From positions 1,116,001 through 1,180,000 of the forward strand of contig NZ_JBAMDA010000001.1 in NCBI RefSeq assembly GCF_036964665.1: DNA of 64,000 nucleotides, read 5' to 3'. Below, in pieces: positions 9,110 to 30,014 of the stretch. Each line of letters starts with the position of its first letter. The first letter of the stretch is position 1. Made by a program: the position numbers and the translations under genes. The stretch is from Nitrobacter sp. NHB1 (GTDB taxonomy: Bacteria > Pseudomonadota > Alphaproteobacteria > Rhizobiales > Xanthobacteraceae). The notes under the pieces were generated by a model, which worked only from the letters and a program-made list of their open reading frames with translations, had not been told where the DNA came from and made no database searches.

Positions 9110-10543
9110 TTACATATTGAGCACGCGCCCGTAGGCGTCGAGCACTGCTTCCTTCATCATTTCCGAGAGTGTCGGATGCGGAAAGATGGTGTGCATCAAT
9201 TCCTGCTCGGTGGTCTCCAGGTTCATCGCAACCACGTAGCCCTGGATCAGTTCGGTGACCTCCGCGCCGACCATGTGCGCGCCGAGCAACTGGCCGGTCG
9301 TCTTGTCGAAGATCACCTTGACCAGCCCCTGATCCTCGCCCAGCGCGATTGCCTTGCCGTTGCCGGCGAACGGGAAGCGGCCGACGCGGATATCCCTGCC
9401 CGCCTCTTTCGCCTTGGCTTCGGTGAGGCCGACAGATGCGATCTGCGGGTGACAATAGGTGCAGCCGGGGATCAGGCTCTTGTCCATCGGGTGCGGATGC
9501 AGGCCCTTGATCGCCTCGACGCAGACGACCCCCTCGTGCTCGGCCTTGTGCGCCAGCATCGGCGGCCCCGCGACGTCACCGATGGCGTAGATACCCGGCA
9601 CGTTGGTCCTGCCGAAGCCGTCGATCACGATGCAGCCGCGATCGGTTTTAACGCCGAGCTTCTCCAATCCGAGATTCTCGATATTGCCGACCACGCCAAC
9701 CGCCGAAATCACCCGCTCGAACTCGGCGGTGACCGGCTTGCCATCGCCCGCGTCGATGGTGGCGACGACGCTGTCGGCCTTCTTGTCGAGCCTGGTGACC
9801 TTGGTAGAGGTCATGATCCTGATGCCCTGCTTCTCGAACTGCTTGCGGGCAAGTGCGGCGATCTCGGCATCCTCGACGGGAAGGACCTGCGGCAGCACCT
9901 CGACCACGGTGACCTCGGCCCCCATGGTGCGGAAGAACGAGGCGAACTCGATGCCGATCGCGCCGGAGCCGACGACGAGCAGCGACTTCGGAATCTTGGG
10001 CGCAACCATCGCCTCGAAATAGGTCCAGACCAGCCTGCCGTCCTGCTCCAGGCCGGGAAGCATACGCGGCCGCGCGCCGGTGGCGACGATGATGTGGCTG
10101 GCTTGATAGCTGCCCTCGCCAAGCGCGCCCTTTGGGGGCTCGGTTTTGAGGTACGGATTAGACTTCTTCACCGTGATCTTTCCGGGCGCGTCGATCGACG
10201 CCTCGCCCCAGATCACGGTGACCTTGTTCTTCTTCATCAGGAAGCCGACACCCTCGTTGAGGCGCTTGGAAACGCCGCGCGAGCGCTGCACCACGGCCTT
10301 CGGATCGTAGCTCACCTTCTCCGCCGACAGGCCGTAATCCTTGGCGTGCTGCATGTAGCGATAGATTTCCGCCGAGCGCAGCAGCGCCTTGGTCGGAATG
10401 CAGCCCCAGTTCAGACAGATGCCGCCGAGATACGCCTTCTCGACGATCGCTGTCTTGAAGCCAAGCTGTGCCGCACGAATCGCGGTGACATAGCCGCCGG
10501 GGCCCGAGCCGATGATGATGACGTCGAAGGAGGTATCGGGCAT
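9110..10543 (-). CDS. lpdA: Dihydrolipoamide dehydrogenase (E3 of pyruvate dehydrogenase)
   Basis: FAD-dependent disulfide oxidoreductase of 477 aa that reoxidises lipoyl groups with NAD+. The N-terminal FAD fold is FDVIIIGSGPGGYVTAI. The redox-active cysteines C43 and C48 lie in GGICLNWGCIPTK. The NAD-binding fold is LLVVGSGAIGIEFAS, and the C-terminal catalytic His-Glu dyad is in HTIFPHPTLSEMMKEAV. It is the last gene of the pdhA-pdhB-pdhC-lpdA cluster, separated from pdhC by a repeat-rich gap of about 190 bases. Confidence 0.96.
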   Translation of the reverse strand: MPDTSFDVIIIGSGPGGYVTAIRAAQLGFKTAIVEKAYLGGICLNWGCIPTKALLRSAEIYRYMQHAKDYGLSAEKVSYDPKAVVQRSRGVSKRLNEGVGFLMKKNKVTVIWGEASIDAPGKITVKKSNPYLKTEPPKGALGEGSYQASHIIVATGARPRMLPGLEQDGRLVWTYFEAMVAPKIPKSLLVVGSGAIGIEFASFFRTMGAEVTVVEVLPQVLPVEDAEIAALARKQFEKQGIRIMTSTKVTRLDKKADSVVATIDAGDGKPVTAEFERVISAVGVVGNIENLGLEKLGVKTDRGCIVIDGFGRTNVPGIYAIGDVAGPPMLAHKAEHEGVVCVEAIKGLHPHPMDKSLIPGCTYCHPQIASVGLTEAKAKEAGRDIRVGRFPFAGNGKAIALGEDQGLVKVIFDKTTGQLLGAHMVGAEVTELIQGYVVAMNLETTEQELMHTIFPHPTLSEMMKEAVLDAYGRVLNM

Positions 10544-10731: not shown

Positions 10732-12096
10732 TCACACCATCATCATCACGGGGTTCTCGATCAGCGTCTTGAATGCGCCGATCAGCTCTGCGCCGAGCGC
10801 GCCGTCGACCGCGCGGTGATCGCAGGACAGCGTCACGCTCATGATGTGTGCCGTCTCGATCTTGCCGCCCCGCACGACCGCGCGTTCCTCGCTGGCGCCG
10901 ACCGCGAGGATCGTGGCGTGCGGCGGGTTGATGACCGCGGTGAAATCCTTGATGCCGTACATGCCGAGGTTGGAGACCGCCGTGGTGCCGCCCTGATATT
11001 CCTCGGGCTTGAGTTTTCGCGCCCGCGCACGCCCGGCGAAATCCTTCATCTCGGCTGAAATGGTCGAGAGCGATTTCGTCTCCGCCTTGCGGATGATCGG
11101 CGTGATCAGCCCGCCCGGCATCGCCACCGCGACGCCGATGTCGGAATGCTTGTGCTTAAGCATGCCGCCCTCGGTCCAGCTCACGTTGGCATTCGGAACA
11201 CGTTGCAGCGCGATTGCCATCGCCTTGATGACGAAGTCGTTGACCGACAATTTGTAGAGCGGCTTCTTGTCCTTGTCCTTCGGCGCGGACGCGTTGATGT
11301 CCTCGCGCGCGGCCAAGAGCCGTCCGATATCGCAGTCCATCGTCAGGTAGAAATGCGGCACGGTCTGTATCGAGGCGGTCAGGCGCTGCGCAATCGTGCG
11401 GCGCATGTTGTCGTGCGGCACGATTTCATAGGAGCCGTCCTCGAACAGCGACAGGATCTGCTTGTCCGACATCGCGGGCGCGATCGACGACGCGCCTGCG
11501 GGCGCAGCGGCGGGCGCCTTCAGGCCCTTGCCGGATTTCGCCTGCTCCACGTCACGCGCGACGACGCGGCCATGCGGACCGCTGCCCTCGATGCGCGCCA
11601 GTTCGATGCCTGCTTCCTTCGCCAGCCGCCGGGCGAGCGGCGACGAGAACACACGGGCTTGGCCGTTGGCCTGCGGCGTTGGCGATCCTGACGATGCAGG
11701 CTTGGGCGCAGGGGCACTGGAGGACAGGTCCGGGGTTCGAGTCGCCCCCTCAGCTCCAGTTTTCGCTTCCGTCTTGGATTCCGTTTTTGCTTCGGCCCTC
11801 GGCTCGGCTTTCGCAGACGCCCCTCCGCTGCTCGCCGCCGCCTTCACATCCTCGCCCTCGCCGGCGAGCACCGCGATCACGTCGTTGACCGGCACATCCT
11901 GCGTGCCTTCCGGCACCAGAATTTTCGCGATGGTGCCCTCGTCCACCGCCTCGACTTCCATGGTTGCCTTGTCGGTCTCGATCTCGGCGATGACGTCGCC
12001 GGATTTGACCTTGTCGCCCTCCTTCTTAAGCCACTTGGCGAGGTTGCCCTTTTCCATCGTCGGCGACAGCGCGGGCATCAGGATGTTGATCGGCAT
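10732..12096 (-). CDS. pdhC: Pyruvate dehydrogenase E2, dihydrolipoamide acetyltransferase
   Basis: A 454-aa E2 core subunit. The N-terminal lipoyl domain carries the lipoyl-lysine motif [15 protein letters not shown] near residue 43. A flexible Ala/Glu/Lys/Pro linker follows, then the E3-binding domain ([17 protein letters not shown] ... [14 protein letters not shown]). The C-terminal catalytic acyltransferase domain contains the [14 protein letters not shown] active-site His-Asp motif. It transfers acetyl groups from lipoate to CoA. It lies 15 bases downstream of pdhB and is clearly co-transcribed. Confidence 0.96.
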
Positions 12097-12111
12097 GGAT
12101 GTCAGCCCCGC

Positions 12112-13536
<1,425 letters not shown>

Positions 13537-13563
13537 GATCGCTCCGAAAAGAGGCTTGCGCGC

Positions 13564-20206: not shown

Positions 20207-20683
20207 ATGCCAAGAAAGCTTCCTTCTTCGCCAAAAACGCCCGCTCTGCAACTCGGCCGCGCGGTGGCGTGGCCGGATTCACCGGAGAAGGCGAATCTGG
20301 ACCGCGTGCCCAATCCGCAGAAGGGCACCAACTATGTCGCGCGGTTCACGGCGCCGGAGTTCACCACGCTGTGCCCGGTCACCGGTCAGCCGGACTTTGC
20401 CCATCTCGTGATCGACTATGTGCCGGGGTCGTGGCTGCTGGAGTCGAAATCGCTCAAGCTCTATCTTGCCAGTTTCCGCAATCACGGCGCTTTTCACGAG
20501 GACTGCACGGTGGCGATCGGCAAGCGCATCGCCGCCGCGGTCAGGCCGAAATGGCTGCGCATCGGCGGTTACTGGTATCCGCGCGGCGGCATTCCCATCG
20601 ACGTGTTCTGGCAGACCGGCACGGTGCCGAAGGGCGTCTGGATTCCCGACCAGAGCGTCCCGGCCTATCGGGGACGGGGCTGA
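20207..20683 (+). CDS. queF: NADPH-dependent 7-cyano-7-deazaguanine reductase
   Basis: Type I QueF (158 aa) that reduces preQ0 to preQ1 in queuosine biosynthesis. The catalytic cysteine lies in [16 protein letters not shown], and the QueF signature [22 protein letters not shown] follows. The C-terminus [19 protein letters not shown] is intact. The last 34 or so codons (20580-20683) lie in the left copy of a 106-bp direct repeat whose second copy is at 22611-22716. The gene's present 3' end may therefore have been supplied by an inserted element. Confidence 0.95.
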
Positions 20684-20685
20684 GC
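20580..20685. repeat. Left direct repeat (att-like), 3' end of queF
   Basis: 106 bases, identical to 22611-22716 except for one base (G at 20677, A in the other copy). It spans the final codons and the stop of queF. Offset between copies is 2031 bases. The identity begins and ends abruptly, as expected for an attachment-site core or for duplication on integration. Confidence 0.93.
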
Positions 20686-20715
20686 CGCACACCGCCGCTT
20701 TAACTTGTCTTCAGT

Positions 20716-20739
20716 CGCCGTTTCTTAGCGGCGTTTTTT
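20716..20739 (+). terminator. Probable rho-independent terminator of queF
   Basis: Hairpin CGCCG-TTTCTTAG-CGGCG followed by six T. It overlaps the last codons of the convergent dCTP deaminase gene and lies 33 bases after the queF stop, inside the island. Confidence 0.6.
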
Positions 20740-22302
20740 GATATTTTTTCTTCCCTTTAATGCGCCTTCCACAGTGTGCGCCATACTGAGGGCCGCGAGA
20801 GCTCTCGCTTTGCTCTTTTCCAACGCTTCTTCAACGTAACGTTCTAAGGGAAGAAAAATCGCCACCTTAATATCCAAAATAGGTCGGGGTTCATTTTGTG
20901 ACCCGACCCATTCTTGGGACTTTCCTGTGATTTTGTTCTTGCGTAACGATTTCTCGAAGAAGTCACGATACCGACGTGGCGATATGCCGTAAAAGTGGGT
21001 AAATTTGACTTTGCGATAATTAGCATAATGAACGCGTGAAGAGCCCTCTACCTCGATCGAGTCAGGATGCAGAGCGAACGCCGCGCTTTTTGGGTAAGGC
21101 TCCAAAAAAAAGACTGTATCAATACCTGATCCAACTATATGTTTTGCACAAATATGACACGGAAACGTCGTGCAGAATAATGTTGCATCTTGAACCGCTC
21201 GCCCGAGCCTAGCGGCATCCATAAGAGCGGACATCTCTGCGTGCAGAATACGTCCGAACTCAATGATGTCCATGAGTTGGGAGTCTTTGACAGCAGGATG
21301 CTGGAGCATATCGTCAATTTTTTCGACACACTCTTCGTTCATCAAAGCTTGGCCACTTAGCCTCTCAAATAGATCGAGAATTAACGCGCGCTTCTTTTCG
21401 TCATTTGGATCATTGCCCCACTTAAAATCACGCGCATCATTGCCGCCATTTTCCGCCCAATAGGTACCGCCCCCGCCTTTAGGGACTTCGTTGCAACCAA
21501 GCGAAATGACCTCGTGATTTTTTGAAAAAATGGCGGCGCCAACTTGTCGAGACAAATCCAGCGAACGTAGCGAGGCGCCCTTGGCCATGTACATTCCATA
21601 TTCAACTGGAGTCGGCGACAGGTCAGTGGCACCGAAAATAAGCTTGATGAATCTATATAGTTGCTCAGATTGAGTGGACGGGATATCTACGTTGATGATG
21701 AAATCGGCTAAATGGAATACGTCGCGAACTCGTTGCCCATTTTGATCCTCTTCCTGATCTTCATCCAATTTTATAAGTTGATCTGCAGCTGCCTTGTACT
21801 TGTCAAGATCGGTACTTTTGTGATCGCGTGCGATACGTTGGGCAAAGGCATCTGTTCTTTCCCCCTTCGATGAGTAAACTGAAATTTGAAAAAACAATTT
21901 GCCATAGACGCTGCGTAAAAGATCGATCTCTTCTTTGCGTTTAAATTGATGAATTATATATGCTTTGCTTTCGCGGTGTTGCCGTTTTGAGTGCTTGAGT
22001 CCTCGTCCCTTGGCAATTTTATCAATAACGAGGGAGGCACAAATAGCTTTGTCACCCGAAATCTCCCGTAAGCGATTTCCAAAATCTATATAGCTTTTGA
22101 AGCGCGCCTCGCTCGGTCTGTCATTAAGCTTTACATCGCAGTAGTCGATGTCTCGAAAGAGATCAGTGACCTTGATCACTTCGACGTCATAGCCGAATCC
22201 CTCCAATTGAGACTTCAATGGTTGGACTGTTTCAGAAAGGTCAACACCTATCGGAGCAACGAGACCGAAAAAAAGTTCAGGAAATTCTATTCTTTCTAAC
22301 AT
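20725..22302 (-). CDS. Anti-phage dCTP deaminase (AvcD/DCD-type)
   Basis: A 525-aa two-domain protein. Residues about 1-200 resemble a nucleotide-kinase-like P-loop domain as in known anti-phage deaminases (ELFFGLVAPIGVDLSETVQPL). The C-terminal domain is a zinc-dependent dCMP-deaminase fold: HAE at residues 354-356 (H354 Zn ligand, E356 general acid-base) and PCHICAKHIV with C382 and C385. Characterised relatives deaminate dCTP/dCMP during phage infection and starve the phage of dCTP. In Vibrio cholerae the partner RNA AvcI keeps the protein silent. Here it is the main gene of the queF island, lower in GC than its surroundings, with a tail rich in Lys/Arg (GRKNIKKRR). Confidence 0.85.
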   Translation of the reverse strand: MLERIEFPELFFGLVAPIGVDLSETVQPLKSQLEGFGYDVEVIKVTDLFRDIDYCDVKLNDRPSEARFKSYIDFGNRLREISGDKAICASLVIDKIAKGRGLKHSKRQHRESKAYIIHQFKRKEEIDLLRSVYGKLFFQISVYSSKGERTDAFAQRIARDHKSTDLDKYKAAADQLIKLDEDQEEDQNGQRVRDVFHLADFIINVDIPSTQSEQLYRFIKLIFGATDLSPTPVEYGMYMAKGASLRSLDLSRQVGAAIFSKNHEVISLGCNEVPKGGGGTYWAENGGNDARDFKWGNDPNDEKKRALILDLFERLSGQALMNEECVEKIDDMLQHPAVKDSQLMDIIEFGRILHAEMSALMDAARLGRAVQDATLFCTTFPCHICAKHIVGSGIDTVFFLEPYPKSAAFALHPDSIEVEGSSRVHYANYRKVKFTHFYGISPRRYRDFFEKSLRKNKITGKSQEWVGSQNEPRPILDIKVAIFLPLERYVEEALEKSKARALAALSMAHTVEGALKGRKNIKKRR

Positions 22303-22331
22303 ATGCTCATCTCTCGGAGATTCCCATTAGG

Positions 22332-22346
22332 TTAACGAAACGTTAA
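22332..22346. promoter_or_regulatory. 15-bp palindrome between the divergent island genes
   Basis: TTAACG-AAA-CGTTAA, a perfect dyad centred in the gap between the deaminase start (22302) and the short ORF (22348). It is a plausible operator for a regulator, or a small RNA hairpin. No regulator gene is in the island. Confidence 0.45.
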
Positions 22347-22347
22347 A

Positions 22348-22560
22348 ATGGCTAGCTTCCAGGATGAAAGAGTAGCGTCGATGTCACGAAAGCCACCCAC
22401 CCGACAACAGTCCCAAACTCAGAGGCAGCAAAGTTCAGGCACAGGATCGGCTAGAGCAGTAAGAGCCGATGCTTTCGATCAATTCATCGAAGATCGCCTT
22501 CAACAAATTGATCGTCATGGAGATCAATCGGAATCTGAAGTCGTTTGTCACGTCTATTAG
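22348..22560 (+). CDS. Short hypothetical protein in the island (uncertain)
   Basis: A 70-codon frame (or 59 from ATG 22381) encoding a Gln/Arg/Ser-rich, probably disordered N-terminus (KPPTRQQSQTQRQQSSGTG) and a more regular tail DAFDQFIEDRLQQIDRHGDQSE. I recognise no family. It is divergent from the deaminase gene. It could be a small partner protein, a truncated gene, or chance coding over a non-coding antitoxin RNA. Confidence 0.35.
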   Translation: MASFQDERVASMSRKPPTRQQSQTQRQQSSGTGSARAVRADAFDQFIEDRLQQIDRHGDQSESEVVCHVY

Positions 22561-22610
22561 TACTAGCTGACCCGATTTTGCAATTTGAGGTTTTGCTAAA
22601 AGTCCGAAGT

Positions 22611-22716
22611 CGCGCGGCGGCATTCCCATCGACGTGTTCTGGCAGACCGGCACGGTGCCGAAGGGCGTCTGGATTCCCGACCAGAGCGTCCCGGCCTATC
22701 GGGGACGAGGCTGAGC
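22611..22716. repeat. Right direct repeat (att-like), queF 3' remnant
   Basis: Second copy of the 106-bp segment at 20580-20685, with one mismatch. It encodes the last codons and stop of QueF but has no start and no upstream part, so it is a pseudogene fragment. It ends 13 bases before the stop of the convergent MFS gene. The ancestral order was therefore queF facing the MFS gene directly. Confidence 0.93.
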
Positions 22717-22729
22717 GCGAACTGCAGTT

Positions 22730-23941
22730 CTAACCCCCGCGCGATCCGGCCTTCCCGACCAGCAGCCGCGCACAGACGAATCCGAGAATCGCGATGACGA
22801 CGGCGTTTGCAGCAAGGGTCGGAAATTTTCCGGCCCAGGCGAGGCTCACGCCATAGGCGATCGGACCGGCCGTCTGCCCCATGTAGAAGAAGAAGGAGTG
22901 CAGCGACAACGCGGTCGCCCGCGCCTGCTCGGACAATTCGCTCGCAAACACCTGCAGGCAGCCGTGCAGCATGTAGAAGCCCCAGCCCATCAGGATGAAG
23001 CTGAGCACCTGGATCCGCCAGTCCGGACCGAAACCGACCGCGACGATCTGCGCCGCCACCAGCATAGCGCCTGATATCATCATACCGCGTACGCCGAGCA
23101 GCGACAGCAACCGCGACACCGTCATGGTGTAGAACAGCCCGCCGACGGCAAATCCGGCGATGACGATGCCCGCGACCGAAAGCCGGGTTTCGCCGAGTTC
23201 GAACAGAAACGCCGCGACGTAGGGAAACAGTCCAAGCACGCAGCAGCCTTCGATGAAAACGGCGGAGTAGCAGACCCGGGCGTTGGGATTGCTGAAGATC
23301 TGCCGGTAGCCATGCCGCAGATCGATGAACTTCATGGGCTGCGAGGTCGTGATCGCATTGCCGCGGCGGAATCCAGACCCGACGGCGATCGAGGCGGCCA
23401 GAACCAGCACTCCGAGCACAACGAGCACACCGCGCCAGCCGACAAGATCGCCGATCACGCCGGAAAACGAGGCGCCAAGCAGATTGCCGCTCACTGTACC
23501 CGCGATCGTCCTGCCGATCGCCACCTGCCGCTGTGACACTGGAACGAGATCGCTCGCCATGCCGAGCGCGACCGGAAAAACACCGCCCGATGCGATTCCT
23601 GCGAAGATGCGCGTCACGAACAGCGCACTGTAGGACGTGCACAGCGCGCCGGCGACGTTCGCGATGCCGAGCAGCACCAGGCACACCAGCATCAGCCGCC
23701 CCTTGCCGAAGATATCGGCGGCCGCGCCGACCAGCGGCTGCACAATGGCAAACGAGAAAGCGGTGACCGCCGACAGGCCGGCGGCGGTTGCGACCGTCAC
23801 CGACAGATCGTCGGCGACATGCGGCAGCACCGGGTCCATCGCGCGCGTCGACAGGCTGGCTGCGAAGGTGGCCAGCGCGATAATATTCAGGAGCGGCGGC
23901 AGTTTGTGCTTTCCAGCCGCTGCCGACGTGACCGATGTCAT
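22730..23941 (-). CDS. Major facilitator superfamily transporter
   Basis: A 403-aa protein with about 12 hydrophobic helices. The MFS loop motif between helices 2 and 3 is [13 protein letters not shown], and [20 protein letters not shown] matches the drug:H+ antiporter motif C region. The substrate is unknown; arabinose/drug-efflux-like DHA1 transporters are the nearest type. The start overlaps the kdsA stop as ATGA, so it is co-translated with kdsA. Confidence 0.88.
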
Positions 23942-24801
23942 TTTGGGAGGGCCGGATCGGCCGCCTTCGCCAGCGCATCGAACGCCATCAGCCTTCGCAC
24001 CAGCGCCTCGAACTCGCGCAGCGGCACCATGTTGGGACCGTCCGACGGTGCATGATCGGGATCGGGATGGGTCTCGATGAACACGCCGGCGACACCGACC
24101 GCAACGGCCGCGCGCGCCAGCACCGGCACGAATTCGCGCTCGCCGCCGCTTGAGGTGCCCTTGCCTCCCGGCTGCTGCACCGAATGGGTGGCGTCGAAGA
24201 TGACAGGCGCGCCGGTGGTGCGCGCCAGGATCGGCAGCGCGCGCATGTCGGAGACCAGCGTGTTGTAGCCGAAGGACGCCCCGCGCTCAGTCACCAGCAC
24301 GTTGCGGTTGCCGCCGCCGGTGATCTTGCTGACGACGTTGGCCATGTCCCACGGCGCGAGGAACTGCCCCTTCTTGACGTTGACGACCTTGCCCGTCGCC
24401 GCCGCCGCCAGCAGCAGGTCGGTCTGCCGGCACAGGAACGCAGGTATCTGCAGCACGTCGACCGCCTGCGCGACCTCGGCGCATTGCGCGGCCTCGTGTA
24501 CGTCGGTGAGCACGGGCAATCCGAGCGACGAGCCGATCTCCGCGAACACCGGCAGCGCCTGATTCAGTCCGAGCCCCCGCTCGCCCGACGCACTGGTGCG
24601 ATTGGCCTTGTCGAACGAGGTCTTGAAGACGAGGCCGATGTTCAGGCGCGCGGCGATCTCCTTCAGCGCGCTGGCCACCTCAAGTGCATGCGCCCGGCTT
24701 TCCATCTGGCACGGACCGGCAATGACCGACAGCGGCCGGTCCTGACCGAAAGTGACGGAGCCGGCGGAGACGACGGGCGCCGCGGAGACGGACTGATTCA
24801 A
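23938..24801 (-). CDS. kdsA: 3-deoxy-D-manno-octulosonate 8-phosphate synthase
   Basis: Condenses phosphoenolpyruvate with arabinose 5-phosphate in the first committed step of Kdo synthesis for lipopolysaccharide. Motifs are [53 protein letters not shown] and [15 protein letters not shown]. The length is 287 aa from a TTG at 24801 ([11 protein letters not shown]). That codon is preferred because AAAGGA lies just upstream and the encoded start matches the family; an ATG at 24828 would add nine residues. It overlaps the downstream MFS gene. Confidence 0.95.
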
Positions 24802-24828: not shown

Positions 24829-25172
24829 GCCGGGCAGCGGCGGCGGGATCAACCCGCTTATTGCGGCTTCGAAGATAAGGAATGCGCGGGGCACAGCGGA
24901 ATCGGCCGCCGCGCCCCTGCATTTCAATAGCAGCCGCAGTCGCGGATCGACGAGGTCTTCCGCAAGATCGTCAAGAAGGCAGGCTGAGCGACGTTAGTCC
25001 GACGGCGCTCAACCATCCTGACATCCGTGAGCCCTCCGCAACAGCAGTCGCCGCTGCCTTGCACAAGTTTTCGGCGCACGTCTGCTGCTGTCGCGAGCAA
25101 TTCTGCAGTGTCGTTCGTGCCATCAATCGATCTCAGCCGTGTTTCGAACGGAAGTGTGCTGCATTTCAAGGT
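24829..25172. other. Intergenic region upstream of nirB and kdsA
   Basis: About 340 bases with no convincing gene. In one plus-strand frame 24931-24987 reads [18 protein letters not shown] and a stop; this looks like the tail of a decayed gene. Around 25064-25082 a weak dyad (TGCACA ... GGCGCA) could be an NtrC-type site, but its spacing is two bases longer than the consensus. Confidence 0.35.
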
Positions 25173-25188
25173 TGGCACGGGGCTTGCT
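25173..25188 (+). promoter_or_regulatory. Sigma-54 promoter of nirBD
   Basis: TGGCACG-GGGC-TTGCT matches the RpoN -24/-12 consensus TGGCACG-N4-TTGCW at every position. It lies about 70 bases before the nirB ATG. It implies control by an enhancer-binding protein such as NtrC under nitrogen limitation. Confidence 0.85.
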
Positions 25189-25256
25189 TGAAAACCGATG
25201 AAGGTCTTGTCGGGCTGCCGCCGTGCGTATCTGAGGACTAAACGGACAAAGCGAAT

Positions 25257-27704
25257 ATGAAGGAAAAGCTGGTTGTCATAGGCGCCGGTATGGCCTCCGG
25301 AAGGATGCTGGAGCATCTGTTCGAGGCCAATCAAGATCGTTTCGACATCATCCTTTTCGGAGCGGAACCGCGCGGCAATTACAACCGCATCATGTTGTCG
25401 CCAGTGTTGGCCGGCGAGAAGTCGTTCGATCAGATCGTCACGCATGATGCGGCTTGGTACGACGACCATCAGGTCAAATGCCGCTTCGGCGAAACGGTGA
25501 CACGCATCGATCGCATGGCGAAGATGGTGCACTCGGCGAGAGGCGAAACTCCTTACAACAGGCTTGTGATTGCGACCGGATCCGCTCCCTTCATGATCCC
25601 CATTACCGGGCGGGACTTGCCGGGCGTCATGGCATTTCGCGACTACGACGATGTCCAGGCGATGGTGGCCGCAGCCGGAAAAAAGGACGCCAAAGCTGTC
25701 ATTATCGGCGGGGGTTTACTCGGACTGGAGGCTGCCGCGGCACTTGGACTGCGCGGCATGGAAGTGGTCGTCCTGCATTTGATGAGCCACTTGATGGAGC
25801 GTCAGTTGGACGCCGCGGCCAGCTATCTGCTGCAGAAGGAACTGGAGGGCCGCGGAATCAAAATCCATTGCAAGGCGCAGACCATCGCGATCCTCGGCCA
25901 CGAGCGCGCCGAAGCCGTGCTGCTCGATGACGGCACCGTTTTTCCTGCCGATATCGTTGTAATGGCGATCGGCATCCGCCCGGAGGTGCGGATCGCAACC
26001 GATGCAGGCATCCATGTTGAGCGCGGCATCGTCGTGGACGACCGAATGCTGACCTCTGATAACAACATCCTCGCTATCGGCGAATGCTGTGAGCATAAAA
26101 ACGTCTGCTACGGCCTCGTCGCGCCGCTCTACGATATGGCCAAGGTCGCCGCGAAGACCCTGACAGGAGTTGAAGCGACATTCCATGCCGTTGAAACAGC
26201 AACCCAGTTGAAGGTGACCGGCGTGAGCCTTTACTCGGCGGGCGACTTCGCCGATGCGCCTGATCGAGAAGAGATCGTGCTGCGGGATGCAGGCTCGGGC
26301 GTCTACAAGAGGCTCGTGCTGAAGGAAAACCGCATTTTGGGAGCTGTCCTTTACGGGGAGACCGCAGACGGTACCTGGTTCTTCGATATGCTGCGCAAGG
26401 GCACCGACGTCTCGCAGATGCGCGACATGTTGATTTTCGGTCAGGCCTATCAGGGGAGCGCGCCGCTCGACCCTATGGCGGCCGTTGCAGCCTTGCCGGA
26501 TGATGCGGAAATCTGCGGCTGCAACGGCGTCTGCAAAAGCAAGATCGTCTCGACCATCACTGCCAAAGGCCTGATGTCGCTCGACGACGTGCGCTCTCAC
26601 ACCAAGGCGTCTGCTTCCTGTGGTGCCTGTACAGGTCTCGTCGAACAACTCATGAAAGTGACGCTCGGGGACAGGTACAATCCCGGTGCCCTACAGCCGA
26701 TGTGCGGCTGCACCGCGTTTGGTCATGATGACGTCCGCCGGCTCATCAAGGCCAAGAACCTGAAGACCATTCCCGCGGTCATGCAGGAATTGGAGTGGAA
26801 GACCTCGTGCGGTTGTGCGAAGTGCCGGCCGGCGCTCAACTATTATCTCGTCTGCGACTGGCCCGGCGAATATGCCGACGATTCCCAGTCGCGTTTCGTC
26901 AACGAGCGCATCCATGCCAACATTCAGAAGAACGGCACCTATTCGGTCGTGCCGCGCATGTGGGGCGGTGTCACCAGCGCGAAGGAACTGCGCGCCATCG
27001 CCGACGTGGTCGATAAATTCCACATTCCCACGGTTAAGGTGACGGGCGGCCAGCGCGTCGACATGCTGGGCGTCAAGAAGGAAGACCTGCCCGCGGTGTG
27101 GGCCGATCTCGGCAAGGCGGGCTTCGTTTCGGGACACGCTTATGCCAAGGGCCTGCGCACGGTGAAAACCTGCGTCGGCACCGACTGGTGCCGCTTCGGC
27201 ACGCAGGATTCGACGGGACTCGGAATCCGCATCGAGAAATTCATGTGGGGATCGTGGACACCGGCCAAGGTCAAGATGGCGGTTTCGGGCTGTCCGCGCA
27301 ATTGTTCCGAGGCGACCTGCAAGGATGTCGGCGTGATCTGCGTCGATTCAGGCTACGAGATTCATTTCGCCGGCGCGGCGGGCCTCGACATCAAGGGCAC
27401 GGAGGTTCTTGGACTGCTGAAAACCGAGGACGAGGCGCTGGAGCATATCGTGGCGCTGGTCCAGATGTACCGCGAGCAGGCACGCTATCTCGAGCGCATC
27501 TACAAGTGGGCCAAGCGCGTTGGCCTCGACGAAATCCGCCGCCAGATTCTGGAGGATCACCAGAAGCGCAAGGCTTATTTCGAGCGATTCATATTCAGCC
27601 AGAGATTCGCGCAGATCGATCCTTGGTCCGAACGCGTGTCGGGGAAGGACAAGCATGAGTTCCGGCCGTTGGCGACTATCGTTTCCCCAGTCGTAGCGGA
27701 GTGA
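25257..27704 (+). CDS. nirB: Assimilatory nitrite reductase (NADH), large subunit
   Basis: Siroheme enzyme (815 aa) reducing nitrite to ammonium in the cytoplasm. The N-terminal FAD/NAD domains have GAGMASGRMLEHL and AVIIGGGLLGLEAAAALG. A BFD-type [2Fe-2S] domain starts at C420 (CGCNGVC) and continues to CGACTGL; further cysteine clusters CGCTAF and CGCAKCR follow. The sulfite/nitrite reductase core has siroheme-[4Fe-4S] ligands C639, C645 (CVGTDWC) and C679, C683 (CPRNC). It is on the opposite strand from kdsA and pyrG and is preceded by a sigma-54 promoter. Confidence 0.97.
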   Translation: MKEKLVVIGAGMASGRMLEHLFEANQDRFDIILFGAEPRGNYNRIMLSPVLAGEKSFDQIVTHDAAWYDDHQVKCRFGETVTRIDRMAKMVHSARGETPYNRLVIATGSAPFMIPITGRDLPGVMAFRDYDDVQAMVAAAGKKDAKAVIIGGGLLGLEAAAALGLRGMEVVVLHLMSHLMERQLDAAASYLLQKELEGRGIKIHCKAQTIAILGHERAEAVLLDDGTVFPADIVVMAIGIRPEVRIATDAGIHVERGIVVDDRMLTSDNNILAIGECCEHKNVCYGLVAPLYDMAKVAAKTLTGVEATFHAVETATQLKVTGVSLYSAGDFADAPDREEIVLRDAGSGVYKRLVLKENRILGAVLYGETADGTWFFDMLRKGTDVSQMRDMLIFGQAYQGSAPLDPMAAVAALPDDAEICGCNGVCKSKIVSTITAKGLMSLDDVRSHTKASASCGACTGLVEQLMKVTLGDRYNPGALQPMCGCTAFGHDDVRRLIKAKNLKTIPAVMQELEWKTSCGCAKCRPALNYYLVCDWPGEYADDSQSRFVNERIHANIQKNGTYSVVPRMWGGVTSAKELRAIADVVDKFHIPTVKVTGGQRVDMLGVKKEDLPAVWADLGKAGFVSGHAYAKGLRTVKTCVGTDWCRFGTQDSTGLGIRIEKFMWGSWTPAKVKMAVSGCPRNCSEATCKDVGVICVDSGYEIHFAGAAGLDIKGTEVLGLLKTEDEALEHIVALVQMYREQARYLERIYKWAKRVGLDEIRRQILEDHQKRKAYFERFIFSQRFAQIDPWSERVSGKDKHEFRPLATIVSPVVAE

Positions 27705-27709
27705 GCACC

Positions 27710-28039
27710 ATGAACTGGATATCTATCGGCCTGACGGCAGATATCCCTATTCGCGGCGCACGCTGTGTGGCAACGCCTCAGGGGTGGATCGCGGTGTTCC
27801 GCACCGTCGAGAATCGCTTCTTCGCCATCGAGGACCGCTGCCCACACAAAGGAGGCCCGCTTAGCCAGGGGATCGTGCATGGCGCTCAGGTCACCTGCCC
27901 GTTGCACAACTGGGTGATCTCGCTCGAAACAGGCACGGCTCTCGGCGCCGATGAGGGCTCGGTACGCACTTTTGCGCTGAAGGTGGAGGGCGGAAAGCTC
28001 TTCATCTCCTCGGAAGCGCTCGTCAAGCGCACCGCATGA
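27710..28039 (+). CDS. nirD: Nitrite reductase small subunit, Rieske type
   Basis: A 109-aa Rieske [2Fe-2S] protein partnering NirB. Cluster ligands are CPH at DRCPHKGGPL and CPLH in VTCPLHNW. The ATG at 27710 has GGAG eight bases upstream and begins MNWISIGL; a GTG at 27701 would overlap the nirB stop and is less likely. Five bases separate it from the nirB stop, so the pair is one transcription unit. No nitrate reductase or transporter follows. Confidence 0.93.
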   Translation: MNWISIGLTADIPIRGARCVATPQGWIAVFRTVENRFFAIEDRCPHKGGPLSQGIVHGAQVTCPLHNWVISLETGTALGADEGSVRTFALKVEGGKLFISSEALVKRTA

Positions 28040-28183
28040 CGTGAAGCGATTTGCCGGGCGGCGTCAGGTCCGCAGGACTTCTCCATTGCGCGGACGGCTA
28101 TGGCGTGGGCAGGCTCGAATCACCGGCGCCTCGCCGATCCGGTCCCTCATCGAATTTCGGACGGCTCTGCTCCTATAGATCAC

Positions 28184-28267
28184 GATGATTTTGGATCGAA
28201 TCGATCCAAAATCATGGGGAATGCAGGCGGACAACCGCTACACACTTTTTCTTACCCCGCCCTAGAG
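28184..28267. repeat. Type-1 palindromic repeat, copy A (shortened)
   Basis: Begins with a perfect 31-base palindrome (28185-28215: ATGATTTTGGATCGA, A, then the complement). It continues GGCGGACAACCGCTACACACTTTTTCTTACCCCGCCCTAGA. Compared with the 53761-53870 copy it lacks the middle segment. Non-coding, between nirD and pyrG. Confidence 0.85.
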
Positions 28268-28369
28268 CCTTTTCGCTTCTGACGGAATCAGAAGCGAGGC
28301 TCTATGATTTTGAATTGACGCGTTTTCTTCACGCGAACCGGTACCCACTTCGCTCGAAAACGCTCTAGA
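28262..28369. repeat. Type-2 palindromic repeat, copy A
   Basis: Starts CTAGAGCC, contains the hairpin CGCTTCTGA-CGGAA-TCAGAAGCG and an outer dyad GCGTTTTC ... GAAAACGC, and ends CTCTAGA. It abuts copy A of the type-1 repeat and stops two bases before the pyrG stop codon region. Nearly identical to 41679-41784. Confidence 0.88.
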
Positions 28370-28370
28370 A

Positions 28371-30014
<1,644 letters not shown>

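Follow-up and report, generated by a model that had tools for sequence, protein, structure and literature searches.

We analysed a stretch of 64,000 nucleotides from Nitrobacter sp. NHB1 (the window), in which the 3' end of queF occurs twice, on either side of a short insert that carries an anti-phage dCTP deaminase (DCD) gene. Positions without a contig or locus label are those of the window. The locus has these features:

20207..20683, + strand: queF (7-cyano-7-deazaguanine reductase), intact, 158 amino acids (Pfam QueF, E = 1.8e-30)
20580..20685, + strand: left (gene-proximal) copy of the 106-bp repeat, from direct-repeat comparison
20686..22610, no strand: inserted segment, 1925 bp, 45.7% GC, recognised by composition and missing from four congeners
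20725..22302, - strand: anti-phage dCTP deaminase (DCD), 525 amino acids (NF041025, 451.6 bits; PADLOC dCTPase)
22348..22560, + strand: small open reading frame (ORF) of 70 amino acids, divergent from DCD (ORF list; kin beside other DCD genes)
22611..22716, + strand: right (distal) repeat copy, an orphan queF 3' end, from direct-repeat comparison
22730..23941, - strand: MFS transporter gene, which adjoins queF in the congeners with an empty site (Pfam MFS_1, E = 5.7e-39)

The two copies of the 106-nt repeat are 99% identical and lie 2031 bp apart, start to start. Their sole mismatch is at repeat position 98 (G in the left copy, A in the right), and the bases just outside both edges of the repeat are unlike between the copies. 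The left copy comprises the final 104 bases of queF, which end in the stop codon, and 2 further bases. Across the whole genome (3.79 Mb in 4 contigs), a search with the repeat at E up to 0.001 yields no match besides these two. We discount a chance origin of the pair because the next longest direct pair in the 6 kb around the insert is just 31 nt at 74% identity. A tandem duplication of queF was also considered and is ruled out, as the homology of the right copy ends at 22611.

The insert is richer in AT than its surroundings (45.7% GC, versus 62.5% for the window). Outside DCD, its ORFs of at least 60 amino acids are the 70-residue frame at 22348-22560 (+) and three others, at 22435-22653 (-), 22545-22733 (+), and 22596-23978 (-), which overlap the 70-residue ORF or enter the right repeat. 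Neither the ORF list nor a Pfam search revealed a recombinase within the 1925 bp. On all of these points the preliminary description, which had been made from the letters of the window, holds up: it had reported 106-base repeats with one mismatch, 2031 bases apart, the left copy being the 3' end and stop of an intact queF and the right copy an orphan beside the MFS gene (22730..23941), with an AT-rich insert between them that contains one anti-phage dCTP deaminase gene and no recombinase. It had also suggested that queF homology upstream of the right copy would indicate a tandem gene duplication, and there is none upstream of 22611. (Another direct repeat in the window, of 213 bp and 85% identity at 11885-12097 and 13325-13537, lies inside one long open frame stretch.)

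The cargo protein is an ordinary anti-phage dCTP deaminase (the kind represented by AvcD of AvcID): it exceeds the NCBIfam cut-off (451.6 bits for NF041025, cut-off 400) and matches PADLOC's dCTPase (E = 6.5e-163). Its translation contains ILHAEMSA and TFPCHICAKHI and matches Pfam PF00383 (E = 5.9e-17). The zinc-binding motifs of deaminases are HAE and PCxxC, and they are present here. Proteins of this family protect against phage by depleting deoxycytidine nucleotides. A study of AvcD describes protection by such depletion (PMC10511110). By analogy, the DCD of the window would guard the cell by consuming deoxycytidine nucleotides upon infection. The antitoxin of AvcID is an RNA (PMC10511110), whereas the window has a divergent small ORF beside DCD.

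Among the ORFs of the insert other than DCD, only this 70-residue frame has counterparts beside other DCD genes. Its C-terminal part is kept beside the closest DCD homologues, and searches of Pfam, PADLOC, and NCBIfam gave no significant family match. Small ORFs of about 50-90 amino acids that are divergent from DCD occur, by our reading, at 24 of 50 loci, in six sequence groups that look unrelated; clusters that resemble frames of flanking host genes were excluded from this count. (The 50 loci are the 49 non-redundant DCD loci described below and a plasmid of Pararhizobium gei, on which the divergent small ORF is annotated as hypothetical.) Examples are at 22348-22560 in the window, at 9676-9921 in locus L098, at about 7830-8015 in L067, and upstream of DCD in L071. 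The small ORF is possibly a regulator or a partner of DCD.

The genome has a second DCD gene, 45% identical to the first and about 43 kb upstream of the insert (G000:C1:1091886-1093364, locus L071). A weak tyrosine-recombinase match lies about 8 kb beyond this second gene, at C1:1101315. Contigs C3 and C4 contain runs of three neighbouring tyrosine-recombinase matches (for example C3:200769-203217 and C4:99736-102184), which resemble recombinase-in-trio elements.

We compared the locus with eight congeners, each of which has a single copy of the 106-bp repeat. In four of them (G001, G003, G005, and G007), the MFS gene is directly behind queF, with one repeat copy. Three others have other genes between queF and the MFS gene and no repeat: in G004, a 240-residue frame that resembles an outer-membrane protein, and in both G006 and G008, a gene that is MFS-like (all named by eye). 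In G002, the contig stops 162 bp past the repeat. The two copies in the window are 99% identical, versus 89% for the nearest congener. Since queF is flush with the MFS gene, with a single copy, in four of the eight congeners, the DCD insert is a gain in the window's lineage. The preliminary description had looked to related strains for a single-copy site without the island and had held that an island fixed in all relatives would speak against its reading; half of the congeners have the empty site, so the island is not fixed. (Further along the window, a segment of about 3.5 kb at 24873-28372 contains a nitrite reductase-like gene at 25257-27704 and corresponds to about 0.5 kb in G004 and G005. 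No direct repeat of at least 50 bp flanks it.)

To see how often a queF end is duplicated, we turned to 391 genomes of the family; the 106 bases match 361 of them (E up to 1e-7). Just four of the 361 have two matches, as judged by reading the rows: the window genome, G149, G352, and G253. We do not count G253, whose queF is on two contigs of a 420-contig assembly. G149 and G352 each have an intact queF, then one gene for an FkbM methyltransferase, and then an orphan queF end, with a distance between copies of 1389 bp in G149 and 1552 bp in G352. The orphan end is 228 bp in G149 (93.9% identity) and 298 bp in G352 (91.9%). This is the other cargo between two repeat copies that the preliminary description had proposed to look for. 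The left edges of the repeats at queF differ between cargos (106, 228, and 298 bp), and the repeat ends 2 bases past the queF stop in the window and in G352 and 9 bases past it in G149.

Relatives have this FkbM site in other arrangements. G133 and G385 have an empty site, in which the sequence that lies behind the orphan of G149 and G352 directly follows queF. In G258, the FkbM gene is directly behind queF, with no orphan and no such following gene within 16 kb. (The FkbM gene matches PF05050 in G149 and in G258; that of G352 is 94% identical in protein.) Given the empty sites of G133 and G385 and the orphan-free queF-FkbM order of G258, the occupied form of G149 and G352 looks like a hybrid of the queF-FkbM arrangement and the empty site. 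Thus, all three arrangements (empty, gene with cargo, and hybrid with orphan) are found for FkbM, and the empty and hybrid ones alone for DCD: among the 391 family genomes, no queF-DCD without an orphan was found, and DCD is at queF in the window genome only.

A scan of 60 regions behind queF, up to about 16 kb, found no second queF end of more than 27 bp; it covered the region downstream of the better-matching copy only and is blind to G149, where the intact queF lies upstream of that copy and which the whole-genome counts revealed. Among viral contigs, 14 loci have a QueF relative, and none of the 14 has the tail alone. (Behind queF in G193, a 78-bp direct repeat of 97% identity surrounds about 3.8 kb, at L243 3633-3710 and 7500-7577. 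A third, partial copy of 57 bp at L243 1869-1925 suggests that this is a dispersed repeat.)

Which of the two copies arrived with the cargo? For G352 and G149, we took those columns of the repeat where every genome has a base and G258 is unlike both empty-site genomes; there are eight of them in each. In G352, three of the eight columns pair the G258 base in the left copy with the empty-site base in the right, none shows the reverse, and five have the empty-site base in both copies. The corresponding counts for G149 are two, one, and five. This thin evidence leans toward the left copy being the incoming one and the orphan the native one. The left and right copies of G149 are 94% alike, which is closer than the left copies of G149 and G352 (89%), so conversion or two events would be needed. 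In the window, the lone mismatch gives no direction.

We also searched for direct repeats around other DCD genes. We found 49 non-redundant DCD loci, including the window, by similarity to the window DCD. For each, we compared the 1.2 kb before the gene with the 1.2 kb after it and scored the best direct match; the best inverted match served as a control. No inverted match scored above 13. The direct scores were 121 for G081 (136 bp), 103 for the window, 57 for Labrys okinawensis (69 bp), 34 for G561 (37-40 bp), 20 for G750, and 16 for G515; the other 43 loci scored 14 or less. We did not count G515 (locus L143) as flanked. Overall, five of the 49 loci have DCD between direct repeats (20-136 bp), in different places, and in these five cases (scores of at least 20) the copies are spaced 1.85 to 2.9 kb apart. 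As a further control, we used 71 loci (1.15 Mb) from queF surroundings and congener segments, which partly overlap and are not matched gene for gene with the DCD loci; four pairs, in two of these loci, scored at least 30 at a spacing of 1.5-4 kb. Scores of at least 30 were seen at 4 of the 49 DCD loci, versus 0.23 expected by chance (P about 1e-4). With the window removed, 4 of 48 loci scored at least 20 and 3 of 48 at least 30, versus 0.22 expected (Poisson P about 0.0016). The closest DCD homologues (85-86% identity, in G227 and G401) have no such flanking repeat.

The repeats of the window, Labrys, and G081 are unrelated sequences. In Labrys, the repeat lies behind a gene and looks like a terminator; that genome contains it twice in full and once as a partial match of 29 bases. 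Among four congeners, G537 and G583 have one close copy each, and G440 and G476 have weaker partial matches. The distal 69-bp copy of Labrys is identical to the single copy of G537, which is flush with the downstream gene, and has 3 differences from that of G583. The gene-proximal copy has 4 differences from G537 and 5 from G583; as it is not the copy of G583 either, these differences may be later mutations. In G561, a phosphoglycerate mutase gene (so named by its sequence) precedes the repeat, which looks like a terminator; 16 congeners have a match, and all 10 that were examined have one copy with the same downstream sequence. In G750, a 26-bp pair overlaps the 3' end of a tRNA-Val gene, and a second pair, of 23 bp, lies inside it. 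The 136-bp repeat of G081 (L067 7273-7408 and 10160-10295) is dispersed, with 48 matches in the genome. We retained it as a flanked case because the copies beside DCD are closest to each other (96% alike, versus 86% for the best other copy). The bracketed loci have in common one small cargo, a position behind or between genes, and target-derived repeats of variable length; a recombinase was not seen at them.

Our tentative preference is that the window insert is a single-gene defence cassette gained by recombination anchored in homology, either one-sided or with a circularised fragment. A transferred piece of DNA would have contained both DCD and a queF 3' end. By homology, this piece would have recombined with the resident queF, the incoming 3' end replacing the resident one and the DCD cargo entering along with it. 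Its other end would have been joined inside the resident queF, leaving the resident last 106 bp as an orphan before the MFS gene. A linear piece could have entered by homology-facilitated illegitimate recombination, a circularised one by a single crossover; an integrase would be unnecessary. Both this mechanism and a like origin for the DCD insert and the FkbM case are inferred from comparing genomes. As the copies in the window are so much closer to each other than to the nearest congener, the donor of its queF-DCD would have been a close relative. The single-copy empty sites of the congeners agree with this explanation, as do the three FkbM arrangements, the columns with a donor-like left copy and a native-like right copy (three in G352 and two in G149), and the identity of the distal Labrys copy to that of G537, from which the gene-proximal one differs at 4 places. 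That repeats vary in length at queF and are unrelated around other DCD genes also fits a join that does not depend on a single site-specific enzyme. Against it, both copies have the empty-site base at five of eight columns in G352 and G149, with one G149 column reversed; the two copies of G149 are more alike than its left copy and that of G352; the gene-proximal Labrys copy is also unlike that of G583; the donor-type queF-DCD without an orphan was not found among the 391 family genomes; the one mismatch in the window gives no direction; and the repeat in G750 runs into a tRNA 3' end, a classic integrase site.

That last case, together with the restored gene end, the orphan at the far side, the AT-rich cargo, the empty sites, and the use of the same queF site by FkbM cargo, would also suit a site-specific mini-island, in which the repeats are the attL and attR of an integrase specific for the queF 3' end, now lost or acting in trans (as in CIMEs). 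With 23 matches to PF00589 in the genome, tyrosine recombinases are available, and the microcin H47 island is a precedent: it is integrase-less, has long repeats, and was excised in E. coli K12 (PMC3191183). We consider this alternative possible, if somewhat less likely. The insert has no recombinase, the left edges at queF are unlike, the unrelated repeats at other DCD units would require several enzymes, and none of the 14 viral loci with a QueF relative has the tail alone. A lone queF-specific integrase accounts neither for the other loci nor for the differing left edges at queF; several acting in trans could. The preliminary description had proposed the footprint of a site-specific element that targets and restores the 3' end of queF. 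Its observations stand (queF is left whole, empty sites exist, and the site has received other cargo), but site-specificity does not follow, given repeat lengths of 106, 228, and 298 bp, unrelated repeats elsewhere, and the FkbM case, which suits recombination anchored in queF no less well. Nor was an element with an integrase seen at queF in the 60 regions behind it, which were scanned for a second queF end.

A long target-site duplication would need no incoming queF: the cargo would enter a break that was staggered or re-copied, and copies of the last 106 bp at the resident queF end would come to lie on both sides. The near-identity of the window copies (99%, against 89% for the nearest congener) and the variable, unrelated repeats of other DCD units would fit, but we think this improbable in view of the donor and recipient direction between the copies of G352 and G149 and of the orphan-free queF-FkbM in G258. 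An assembly or other artefact is very improbable: the comparison does rest on assemblies, with one genome per species, but the composition breaks over the insert, the insert is on a 3.3-Mb contig, and independent analogues occur in other genomes. A broader idea, which we rate as unlikely, is that DCD and its fast-changing divergent small ORF form non-autonomous single-gene elements. These would replace a resident gene's 3' end or terminator and leave the displaced end behind, with the host or other elements supplying recombination and the queF end as a recurrent site.

Much of this has parallels. DCD itself, repeat-flanked islands without an integrase, and homology-helped illegitimate recombination are already known. 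CIMEs retain flanking repeats and are without integration and transfer genes (PMC5704250). The window insert likewise has flanking repeats without such genes, the repeats keep the target gene whole, and an empty site exists elsewhere, as for CIMEs and integrase islands; it differs in having a single-gene cargo and no known parent ICE or IME or integrase for the queF site. The microcin H47 genomic island has long direct repeats, no integrase of its own, and a length of 12.6 kb, with demonstrated excision (PMC3191183), whereas the window insert is 1.9 kb and known as sequence. Elements that integrate at the 3' end of a protein gene, such as SGI1 at trmE, duplicate that end and leave the gene whole, as at queF, but they carry their own integrase (for SGI1 at trmE, PMC8409611) and the window insert has none. 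PMC3240628 describes recombination in which one end of a piece pairs by homology and the other is joined illegitimately, or in which the piece is ligated into a circle; the product would be a gene, cargo, and an orphan end, as here. That process is known from laboratory transformation and conjugation, whereas our case comes from genome comparison. Natural transformation that yields merodiploids (PMC3784515) is an alternative mechanism that we did not adopt. A non-exhaustive search of the open-licence literature found no report of queF as an insertion site or of DCD inserts with such scars; one paper mentions queF as a copper-response gene.

Many defence genes stand alone in chromosomes, and the vehicle that brought them is invisible. 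A scar made of an intact gene, cargo, and an orphan end orients the insertion and may show which copy arrived with the cargo, so the route by which a single defence gene was acquired becomes testable. The same build with a different gene in relatives hints at a simple way for bacteria to take up single genes that encode no mobility enzyme themselves. If DCD and its small ORF do form minimal cassettes, they would be an undescribed class of non-autonomous elements, and if an integrase acts in trans, a class of minimal elements has so far gone unnoticed. Should host recombination be the source of the scar, no mobile element would be needed for defence genes to spread among close relatives.
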